A stretch of 8,137 bases of DNA from Candidatus Mcinerneyibacteriota bacterium (lineage in GTDB: Bacteria > AUK180 > JAQVHJ01), in NCBI GenBank assembly GCA_030630935.1, contig DAOVMD010000123.1, positions 1 through 8,137 of the forward strand, in the 5' to 3' direction. The notes under the pieces are model-generated. The model was not told where the DNA came from. It was given only the letters and a program-made list of their open reading frames with translations, and made no database searches. Below, one piece after another: positions 698 through 4,417 of the stretch; the stretch's first letter is position 1, and each line of letters starts with the position of its first letter. Position numbers and translations under genes: made by a program.

Positions 698-1654
698 ATG
701 AAAAAGATTTTAATTTTTTCTGTATTTATTCTGATTGGATTATTATTTCTGACCATTTCAGCAAGTGCTGATAACTATGATAAAGCCCTTGATTACTACA
801 ATGCAGGAGTTGATCTCCATGATAGTAATCCTGATGCTGCTTTAAAAAACTATTTTAAGGCTCTTAATTATGATACTTCAATTGCTGAAGTATACCTGAA
901 TATTGGATTGATTTATATTAATAAAAATGACTTAGACCAGGGTGAGAAATATACTCTTCAAGCTTTGGAGACCTTTGTTAAGACAAAAAAGAAAGTTTCA
1001 GGGAGCCAAACTTATGAAAGATTAGTTGCAATTTGTAATAGTAATATCGGTCTTATTTATTTGAAAAGAATGGCAAAAGTTACCGATACTGAAACTAAGC
1101 AAAAATACCTTGAATATGCCTTAACTGATTTTCTATGGGCTCTTGAAGTAGACCCCACTTATTCAATTGCAAAAGATTATTATGCTGACAACTTACCTAA
1201 TATTAAAAAATCTGGTCCGGAATTCTATGATGATGGTGTAGATTATCTTGATAAAGAAAAAAGTTTTGAAGCTATCATCAGATTTAAAATTGCAATTGAT
1301 TTAGATCCGTCAATTGGGGAAGCACATCTAAATACCGGTCTTGCATATATGAGAGAAGGTGATTATTATTATTGTGAAATTTATTCAAAAGAAGCAATTA
1401 ACACCTTTAGAAAATATAAAAAAGTAATTGCTCAGGGTCAAACCATAGAAGAATTAATTGCGATATGTTACTTGCACATGGGACTTGCATATATAGGTAA
1501 AGCCAGAGATGCTGATGACAAGGGTAATTATAGTGATGCAGAAATCTATCACAAGACTGCTTTAGAGATGTGGAAGAAAGGTATGACGGAAGACCCTACT
1601 TTCTCAAAGCTTAAGAAGGCTTATGCTAAATACGAAAAGAGTTATAAAGAATAA
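698..1654 (+). CDS. exported tetratricopeptide-repeat (TPR) protein
   Basis: The 318-residue protein starts with a signal peptide: basic MKK, a hydrophobic stretch to about residue 20, then Ala-Ser-Ala, consistent with signal peptidase I cleavage after Ala24. It lacks the lipobox cysteine of its two neighbours. The mature part is alpha-helical TPR sequence with typical features such as YLNIGLIY and DP(T/S) turns. It divides into two homologous halves, about residues 26-168 (module A) and 177-318 (module B). Each has a KKV...Q(S/T)...L..IC segment between helices. TPR domains usually scaffold protein contacts; the partner here is unknown. The start has an ideal ribosome binding site (AAGGAGG, 5-nt spacer) and its own strong promoter. 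It is probably periplasmic or secreted. The TPR assignment is firm; the specific role is unknown. Confidence 0.85.
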   Translation: MKKILIFSVFILIGLLFLTISASADNYDKALDYYNAGVDLHDSNPDAALKNYFKALNYDTSIAEVYLNIGLIYINKNDLDQGEKYTLQALETFVKTKKKVSGSQTYERLVAICNSNIGLIYLKRMAKVTDTETKQKYLEYALTDFLWALEVDPTYSIAKDYYADNLPNIKKSGPEFYDDGVDYLDKEKSFEAIIRFKIAIDLDPSIGEAHLNTGLAYMREGDYYYCEIYSKEAINTFRKYKKVIAQGQTIEELIAICYLHMGLAYIGKARDADDKGNYSDAEIYHKTALEMWKKGMTEDPTFSKLKKAYAKYEKSYKE

Positions 1655-1792
1655 ATAATTATAACAGGGGTCTGGAAAAAATACTATTGTTTGCTCTCGG
1701 TGAGGTTAACGAATTTTACCGAATATTAACATTTCTATTTAGTAATTAATATTAGCATTTTGATATTGTAACATCAATTGTATAAATTTTTC

Positions 1793-1821
1793 TTGACATT
1801 TTGCTAATTATTTGATATCAT
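1793..1821 (+). promoter_or_regulatory. sigma70-type promoter of the second TPR gene
   Basis: TTGACA (1793-1798), a 17-bp spacer and TATCAT (1816-1821) form a strong promoter. The wider sequence, including TTCTTGACATTT and the TGATAT block running into the -10 box, closely resembles the promoter at 646-674, so the promoter was probably duplicated with the gene. The rest of the intergenic stretch from 1655 is AT-rich, with no convincing terminator for the preceding gene. Confidence 0.75.
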
Positions 1822-1850
1822 ATTAATAATCTAAAAAAAAGGAGAAAAGA

Positions 1851-2837
1851 ATGAAAAGGAATGTCATTTTTGTTTTTACTCTTGTAATAGGGGTATTTTT
1901 ACTTATTGCCTGTGGAGATAGTGATACAAAGACTACTACTACAACTACGTCAAATTATGACCAAGCAATCGAATATTATAATGAAGGTGTAATTTTGCAT
2001 GATACTAATCCTGATCAATCAATGGAAAAGTATAAATTGAGTCTACAAAATAGTACCGATATCGGGGAAGTCTATTTAAATATAGGCTTAATTTATAGTA
2101 ACAGAGATGATTATGATAAGGGTGAAGAATATACAAAAACTGCCCTGTCAACTTTTCAAAGAACCGGGAAAAAGGTTTCAGATACCCAATCTCTTGAAAG
2201 ATTAAAATCGATTTGTAATAATAATATTGGAACAATTTATATTCAGAGGATGAATTCTGCATCAGATGAATTTACTATGAAAAGACATTTAGATACAGCT
2301 CTTTCCTACTTTAAAAAGGCAATGGATATTGATTCGAGTTATTTAACTGCAATTGATAATTATAATACGTTTAAAAATTATGTTCCAAAACCTAAAGAAG
2401 GGGTAAATTTTTATAACGAAGGAGTTGACCTTCTGGATGCAAAGAAATATAAACAAGCAATCGCAAAATTTCAAATTGCAATTGAGAAAGATCCTTCTAT
2501 AGGTGAAGCATATTTGAATATTGGATTATGCAATCTGAGAACCGGGGATTACAAAGGTACTGTGAAATGGACAAAAGAAGCTATTAATACATTTAAAAAG
2601 TATAAGAAGGTTGTTGGGGAAGGTCAGACACTGCAAGAACTAATTGCAATATGTTACCTTAATATTGGCATAACTAATATCTTGCTAGCTCAGGAAGCTG
2701 ATGGGAATGGAGATATTCCAACCGCAAAAGCGTATCATAAAACTGCACTTGAGAACTTTGAAAAGGGTATTGCAGAAGACCCGACTTATGCAAAAATTAA
2801 AGAACTTAAAAGTAAATATAAAGATAGTTACAAATAG
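1851..2837 (+). CDS. TPR-repeat lipoprotein (two modules)
   Basis: This 328-residue paralogue of the preceding gene begins with a lipoprotein signal: MKRN, a hydrophobic segment, and lipobox Leu-Ile-Ala-Cys with the lipidated cysteine at residue 21. A short threonine-rich linker (about 26-33) follows. Glycine at +2 would not trigger inner-membrane retention under the E. coli rule, but that rule may not hold here. The mature protein has module A (about 35-176) and module B (about 187-328), both TPR-like. Module A contains KKVSDTQSLERL and module B KKVVGEGQTLQEL, matching the modules of the first gene. AAGGAG at 1839-1844 with a 6-nt spacer supports the start. The third paralogue follows after 42 bp and is probably co-transcribed. 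It likely acts as a membrane-anchored protein-binding scaffold; its ligand is unknown. Confidence 0.87.
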   Translation: MKRNVIFVFTLVIGVFLLIACGDSDTKTTTTTTSNYDQAIEYYNEGVILHDTNPDQSMEKYKLSLQNSTDIGEVYLNIGLIYSNRDDYDKGEEYTKTALSTFQRTGKKVSDTQSLERLKSICNNNIGTIYIQRMNSASDEFTMKRHLDTALSYFKKAMDIDSSYLTAIDNYNTFKNYVPKPKEGVNFYNEGVDLLDAKKYKQAIAKFQIAIEKDPSIGEAYLNIGLCNLRTGDYKGTVKWTKEAINTFKKYKKVVGEGQTLQELIAICYLNIGITNILLAQEADGNGDIPTAKAYHKTALENFEKGIAEDPTYAKIKELKSKYKDSYK

Positions 2838-2879
2838 AATTTTCTCTAACTTAATATTTAACCAAAAAAGGAGTTTAAG

Positions 2880-3374
2880 ATGAAGAGAAACTATATTCTA
2901 ATTTTAGGTGTAGTTATTTCTGTATTCCTGGCATTCGCTTGTGGAGATAGTGATACAACAACCACAACTACACCAACAGGAAATTATGATAAAGCGGTAG
3001 AATATTATAATGAAGGTGTCAATTTAGATGAAAATTATCCAGATCAAGCTATGGAAAAATACAAATTAAGCTTACAAAATAGCACAGATATTGGGGAAGT
3101 TTATCTTAATATCGGTATGATTTATTTTAAAAAAGGTGATGTGTCTAATGCTGAGTATTATTTCAAAATTGCACTTGCAACATTTGAAAGAACAAATAAA
3201 AAGGTTTCCGGTACCCAGTCTCTTGAAAGATTAAAAGCAATTTGCAATTATGATCTTGGGCTCCTTTATTTAACAAAAAATGATAAAGCCACTGCGTTAT
3301 CATATTTCGAAAAAGCAATGGATACTGATCCTGCTTGTACAAAGGCAAGAGATTATTATAACGCAAATAAGTAA
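2880..3374 (+). CDS. short TPR-repeat lipoprotein (single module)
   Basis: This 164-residue paralogue is about half the length of its neighbours. The signal peptide ends in Ala-Phe-Ala-Cys (Cys21), followed by GDSDT and a threonine-rich linker almost the same as in the upstream gene. Only module A is present (about 35-164), including KKVSGTQSLERLKAIC. Compared with the upstream module A it lacks about 10 residues after the IC motif, giving a more canonical TPR spacing. It stops cleanly with TAA and no module B remnant is obvious downstream, so it looks like a functional single-module protein, not a frameshifted one. AAGGAG at 2868-2873 supports the start. No promoter is evident in the 42-bp gap, suggesting co-transcription with the second gene. 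Confidence 0.85.
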   Translation: MKRNYILILGVVISVFLAFACGDSDTTTTTTPTGNYDKAVEYYNEGVNLDENYPDQAMEKYKLSLQNSTDIGEVYLNIGMIYFKKGDVSNAEYYFKIALATFERTNKKVSGTQSLERLKAICNYDLGLLYLTKNDKATALSYFEKAMDTDPACTKARDYYNANK

Positions 3375-3520: not shown

Positions 3521-4417
3521 ATGAAAAAAGCACTTAGCATCAGTTTAGGTTCAAGTACAAGGGATCATTCGACTATAATCAAATTATTAGGAGAAGAAGT
3601 AGAATTATCCCGAATTGGAACTGACGGTGATGTTAAAAAGGCTATGCAGTTATTTAAGGATTATGATGGTAATGTTGATTGCATGGGTCTTGGCGGGATG
3701 ACCTTCAAGTTTTATATGGAGAAGGAAAGAACCCTCAGGAGTGCTTATAAAATTGTTAAGGGGGCTATTCAGACACCTGTAGTTGATGGCGCCAATCTAA
3801 AAAGAACACTTGAAGGGAATCTTTTACAATATCTAAAAAAGAAATTTGATTTTGATTTCGGTGAAAAGACTTGCTTTTTAAACTCAGCAGTTGACAGATA
3901 TTCTTTAGCGACTTCATTTCTAAAAGAAGATTTTCAAATTACTTATGGAGATTTCATGGTAATACTTGGTCTTCCTTTTCCTGTTAAGAAACTTAGGAAA
4001 ATCGAGATCTTAGCGGCGATACTTATGCCATTACTTTCTCTTGCACCTGTTTCGTGGCTTTACCCGACCGGTGAGAAGCAAGAGACATCTCAAGATAAAT
4101 ATTCTGAGCATTATGATAATAATCATTTTATTGCTGGAGATTTTTTATTTATTAAGCAATATATGCCGAAATTTATGAAGGATAAAATTATAGTAACAAA
4201 TACAACAACGCAAGAAGACGTGGAATTATTGAGAAAAGCCGGAGTTAAATATTTAATTACATCAACTCCGGTTTTTGAAGGCCGATCATTCGGGACAAAT
4301 GTATTTGAAGCCGCATTAGTAGCCGCATCCGGAAAAGGCCGAGTTTTAGAGACTGAAGAACTTACCGAATTACTAAAAGAAATCAATTACAAACCAAGGG
4401 TTGAAAAACTAAATTAA
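3521..4417 (+). CDS. conserved protein, family often annotated quinate 5-dehydrogenase
   Basis: The 298-residue protein resembles a family seen in anaerobic Firmicutes and candidate phyla whose database label is quinate 5-dehydrogenase; I recall that label but know of no solid biochemical proof. Visible landmarks are SLGSSTRDH (8-16), RIGTDGD (31-37), GLGGM (56-60), a hydrophobic stretch at about 161-180 that might be a membrane-associated helix, and a C-terminal TSTPVFEGRSFGTNVFEA block (248-265) characteristic of the family. I see no classical GxGxxG dinucleotide-binding motif, so a dehydrogenase role is doubtful. The start has only a weak, close AGGA (3514-3517), but the N-terminus fits the family and no better in-frame start exists upstream. 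It is first in the operon, and its stop overlaps the next start as TAATG. Confidence 0.6.
   Translation: MKKALSISLGSSTRDHSTIIKLLGEEVELSRIGTDGDVKKAMQLFKDYDGNVDCMGLGGMTFKFYMEKERTLRSAYKIVKGAIQTPVVDGANLKRTLEGNLLQYLKKKFDFDFGEKTCFLNSAVDRYSLATSFLKEDFQITYGDFMVILGLPFPVKKLRKIEILAAILMPLLSLAPVSWLYPTGEKQETSQDKYSEHYDNNHFIAGDFLFIKQYMPKFMKDKIIVTNTTTQEDVELLRKAGVKYLITSTPVFEGRSFGTNVFEAALVAASGKGRVLETEELTELLKEINYKPRVEKLN

Follow-up and report, generated by a model that had tools for sequence, protein, structure and literature searches.

PorW/SprE and BamD are examples of TPR lipoproteins that function in the type IX secretion system (T9SS) or in outer-membrane assembly. NlpI, a TPR lipoprotein of the E. coli outer membrane, has been shown to act as a scaffold of peptidoglycan hydrolases (PMC7049810). 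The length of the repeat also varies between described systems: the TPRs of kinesin light chain are 42-residue repeats, such longer variants (42PR) being accepted as TPRs (PMC5642895), and the residue numbers of the clamp in Hop TPR2A imply about 41 residues for the second TPR of that domain (PMC7524759).

The locus described here lies in a window of 8,137 nucleotides (the whole stretch of DNA analysed), which is one entire contig (DAOVMD010000123.1) of an incomplete draft genome (GCA_030630935.1; 3.16 Mb, 471 contigs, 80% complete) of a Candidatus Mcinerneyibacteriota bacterium. Its three TPR genes arose by the copying of one three-repeat block, which is ordinary gene family growth and no new kind of system. 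Their products probably form a small lineage-specific family of exported envelope TPR scaffolds, in which modules resembling Hop TPR2A bind segments of partner proteins.

Three adjacent genes and five modules

The features of the locus are as follows.
644-674 (boxes 646-674), + strand: sigma-70-like promoter of gene 1, TTGACA-N17-TATTAT, 11/12 consensus matches
698-1654, + strand: gene 1 (P0001), 318 aa, signal peptide without lipobox, modules A1 and B1
773-1213, + strand: module A1 of gene 1, 147 residues
1214-1651, + strand: module B1 of gene 1, 146 residues
1793-1821, + strand: sigma-70-like promoter of gene 2, TTGACA-N17-TATCAT, in repeat D8 with 637-674
1851-2837, + strand: gene 2 (P0002), 328 aa, lipoprotein, lipobox LIAC, Cys21, Thr-rich linker, modules A2 and B2
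1953-2399, + strand: module A2 of gene 2, 149 residues
2400-2834, + strand: module B2 of gene 2, 145 residues
2880-3374, + strand: gene 3 (P0003), 164 aa, lipoprotein, lipobox AFAC, Cys21, module A3 only, partial copy of the 5' part of gene 2
2982-3371, + strand: module A3 of gene 3, 130 residues, third TPR of the canonical 34 residues

The spread of five modules over three adjacent genes (A-B, A-B, A), proposed by the sequence-only reading, is confirmed by the coordinates, with module borders placed where the internal repeat starts, and by the pairwise scores. Identities are 49-64% between A modules, 55% between B modules and 29-35% between A and B, and all ten module pairs give local scores 23-74 standard deviations above those of shuffled sequence; by this comparison the two module types are homologous. 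The consensus quoted for each type was recovered as well, except that its opening KKV is K-K-(V/I/T) in the family and T-T-A in a remote module.

The description of the products as exported TPR proteins also stood, based on the signal peptide of gene 1, the lipoboxes of genes 2 and 3, and TPR profiles matched above the Pfam cut-offs (TPR_1, TPR_11 and TPR_12 in P0001; TPR_1, TPR_2, TPR_12 and others in P0002; TPR_8, TPR_2, TPR_1 and TPR_12 in P0003). The lipobox pattern is matched by P0002 and P0003, in both of which Cys21 is followed by a Thr-rich linker, and is not matched by P0001, whose signal peptide is of Sec type, or by P0004, a relative with a signal peptide encoded in another genome of the same family (G001). 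Since each of the seven genomes of the class has Omp85 and Por secretion tail proteins, the host is diderm, and the proteins should reside in the periplasm or on the outer membrane. The Por tail proteins are numerous in all seven genomes, which suggests type IX secretion in the phylum.

The sigma-70-like sites of genes 1 and 2 are strong, and a TTGACA...TATTAT arrangement resembling that of gene 1 precedes the gene in G001. Only 42 bases separate gene 3 from gene 2, a gap in which no strong promoter-like site was found. Comparison of these two genes gives a dN of 0.25 and a dS of 1.7 (dN/dS about 0.15), and most variation falls at codon position 3; because of this and because dN is well below dS, the proteins are under selection.

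Fold and order of duplications

Structure prediction places the modules within the TPR fold. The AlphaFold2 models of P0002 (pLDDT 89) and P0003 (pLDDT 86) both consist of stacked antiparallel helix pairs, each module comprising three such pairs (TPRs) and a capping helix, and solved TPR domains fill the lists of structural matches. A pTM of only 0.56 for the two-module model of P0002 does not fix the orientation of the two modules to each other. Hop TPR2A is the top solved match of the B module (Z 19.1, 2.1 Å, 125 residues) and, in an independent search, of the A module (Z 19.0, 2.1 Å, 121 of 130 residues), other peptide-binding TPR domains also being among the top solved matches for both. 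Measured from conserved glycine to glycine, the first TPR has 33-34 residues, the second 48 in all modules, and the third 45-48, but 34 in A3. The modules thus share with Hop/STI1 TPR2A (PDB 1elr, 3fwv) three TPRs, a cap and a lengthened second TPR, from which they differ in that this TPR has 48 residues rather than about 41, in their low identity (15-22%), in the absence of the carboxylate clamp, and in being bacterial and exported. TPRs of more than 34 residues are also a feature of the TPR_12/kinesin-light-chain type (PF13424), and the TPR_12 profile matches residues 71-149 of P0003; the bacterial kinesin-light-chain-like BtubC (5o01) is matched over profile positions 30-102. Unlike in that type, the second TPR of the modules has 48 residues, not 42, and only the second and third TPRs are long.

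The order of duplications was addressed with a tree of seven family modules (the five described here and two from G001), with one remote module as the outgroup. The A modules form one clade (99/99) and the B modules another (90/88), A1 pairing with the A module of G001 (99/100) and B1 with its B module (93/96). The claim that the A/B duplication preceded the gene duplication is upheld by these clades and by AU tests, in which the opposite arrangement, A grouping with B inside each gene, was looked for and rejected (p-AU 2e-9 for A1+B1 and 8e-7 for A2+B2); the same tests rule out that A and B evolved in concert inside one gene. The tree and the AU tests together imply that A and B split first and that the lineages of genes 1 and 2 split before the two genomes did. 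The gene 2 type may have been lost in G001, or it may sit in the missing 28% of that assembly.

The 5' part of gene 2 is the most likely source of gene 3. Because the fork between A2, A3 and A1 is unsettled in the tree, this origin rests on sequence identity and the shared lipoprotein leader, the A modules of the two genes being 64% identical and the DNA repeat D1 (1835-2134 and 2864-3163, 70% identical) linking the 5' part of gene 2 with gene 3. Gene 1 would be the likely ancestral, non-lipidated member, the lineage of genes 2 and 3 would have gained a lipoprotein anchor, and gene 3 would be a partial copy with a single domain. The case documents, for a phylum about which little is known, how domain duplication was followed by gene duplication and then by partial copying, and how a soluble protein gave way to a lipid-anchored form. 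Because such expansions of TPR paralogues are common, its wider significance is small.

Spread and proposed role

A profile built from the module, the search that the sequence-only reading had called for, recovered the full module in only three of about 480 genomes (the large searches scored the best 10 first-look candidates per genome): the source genome, G001 and one remote genome, G185. Within the phylum the module profile finds it in two of seven genomes, other matches there being mostly confined to profile positions 5 to about 75, a region of generic TPR, apart from a few that are longer but weak. The only close relative found is the single A-B gene of G001 that encodes P0004 (L009:1435-2385). 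Among the 386 nearest genomes there was one further full-length match, that of G185 (E 1e-24), and the relatives of G185 yielded no other strong full-length match; none was found at E 1e-14 in 98 genomes of two further phyla, a set that holds no positive control. Nine contig matches of 21-32% identity are weak partial TPR matches. Judged by these profile searches, the module is likely to be rare.

The G185 protein (L054:670-1935), from a different small phylum, carries one full module with TPR lengths of 34-48-48, identical to those of the B modules, behind a zinc-ribbon-like start and putative membrane helices. It differs from the family in having a single module of 24-30% identity, with Ala in place of Cys and TT in place of KK. 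On a broader reading, the 34-48-48 module with its invariant hydrophobic concave face would be a distinct peptide-binding domain with a sparse distribution among diderm candidate phyla. One lineage would employ it singly and tethered to the membrane, another in tandem within lipoproteins, and its envelope ligand would be hydrophobic, in contrast to the ligand of clamp TPRs; this is considered unlikely.

Among the residues that all eight modules share without exception are Y5 and V9 of the first TPR, E2, L5 and N6 of the second, I2 of the third, and G8 throughout; such residues are largely at helix-A positions. In TPR domains of known structure these positions, by TPR numbering, face the groove, and from this numbering we infer the same exposure here. 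The carboxylate clamp residues of TPR2A were taken from PMC7524759 and were mapped in this analysis to Lys5/Asn9 (first TPR), Asn6 (second TPR) and Lys2/Arg6 (third TPR). In place of this set the modules have Tyr5/Val9, Asn6, Ile2 and Asn, Asp or His at position 6, and a eukaryote-like Hsp90/Hsp70 co-chaperone is ruled out by the absence of the clamp. If the modules act as other TPR domains do, the helix-A (concave) face of each should bind a peptide or helix segment of a partner protein, in a groove that would be mainly hydrophobic, and the clients would presumably be envelope proteins. The A-B proteins, with two domains, might link two partners, or two segments of a single one. NlpI demonstrates that such a mode of action is open to a TPR lipoprotein and offers a likeness as an exported one (PMC7049810), from which the family differs in showing no homology to it beyond the TPR (NCBIfam PRK11189, 16.8-18.9 bits against a cut-off of 250).

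Rival readings and genomic setting

The conspicuous KKV...IC stretch had been read as lying outside the standard TPR, with an invariant cysteine between helices, and as possibly defining a distinct family. In the model of P0003, helix B of the second TPR spans residues 88-105, a nine-residue loop (106-114) carries K-K-V-x-x-x-Q, and helix A of the third TPR spans 115-136, so that the stretch is, in the predicted structure, the tail of a lengthened second TPR and the first turns of the next helix A. The part of the claim that survives is the lengthening, the second TPR being 14 residues longer than the canonical 34 in eight of eight modules, the remote one included; an insertion foreign to TPRs is ruled out by the TPR_12 match, which crosses the stretch unbroken, and by the superposition on Hop TPR2A. 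What appeared to be a new element is thus a lengthened TPR. That the stretch defines a distinct family whose cysteine performs redox, metal or acylation chemistry between helices would fit the rarity of the module and the invariance of the cysteine in all seven family modules. The cysteine (Cys122 of P0003), however, sits well inside a continuous helix, at position 3 of helix A of the third TPR, is Ala in the remote full-length module and has no conserved partner residue. The helix position and the Ala dispose of a catalytic or structural cysteine between helices. Conservation of the stretch is also no higher than that of the other TPRs: identity between A and B is 0.35 in loop and helix, against 0.31 in the first TPR and 0.40 in the second, and against the remote module, which has TT at this site, the loop is the least conserved part (0.17). 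A family so defined, with cysteine chemistry, is exceedingly improbable.

A role as dedicated accessory or assembly factors of the T9SS or of outer-membrane assembly in the phylum accords with the use of TPR lipoproteins by such systems (PorW/SprE, BamD), with the Por tail proteins in every genome of the class, and with weak hits among the NCBIfam models: P0003 reaches 27.7 bits (E 1e-6) with PorW/SprE, for which the cut-off is 250, and P0002 36.2 bits (E 4e-9) with BamD, for which it is 81.4. These matches are, however, far under the cut-offs and no more than any TPR would give, all scores for the NlpI, BamD, PilW and PorW equivalogs lying far below the curated NCBIfam values, and since all five other genomes of the class have tails and Omp85 without the full module, the module cannot be a core part of either system; such a dedicated role is quite unlikely. 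A selectively near-neutral paralogue expansion, with gene 3 as a decaying fragment without a role of its own, would account for the missing module B and for a position so close behind gene 2 in the absence of a strong promoter-like site. Against this, gene 3 retains an open frame, an intact lipobox and a ribosome-binding site, has a confident predicted fold of its own, and shows the low dN relative to dS given above, which makes decay very unlikely. The reading of the family as envelope scaffolds with peptide-binding grooves is preferred to all of these.

No partner gene adjoins the TPR genes in the window, and the G001 copy has other neighbours. A 298-residue protein without a Pfam or NCBIfam match (3521-4417) heads a close-packed run with the downstream genes for NTP transferase, PAP2, Mut7-C, PdxA and KsgA, which are unrelated housekeeping genes; an operon of the remaining window genes with the TPR genes is unsupported, the G001 copy lying in a different context. 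A mobile or viral origin was also rejected, there being no plasmid match and no viral relative by the module profile; one weak generic TPR match occurs in a virus contig. The non-coding region upstream of gene 1 is bracketed by an 18-base inverted repeat (82-99 and 607-624, 94% complementary) and contains, at 314-359 on the minus strand, a match to the Acido-Lenti-1 RNA (Rfam RF01687, 40.9 bits). Matches to RF01687 number at least 45 in the source genome and 29 in G001, with none in the five other genomes of the class, a distribution like that of a dispersed palindromic (REP-like) repeat; a stretch resembling it begins at 380 (repeat D14).
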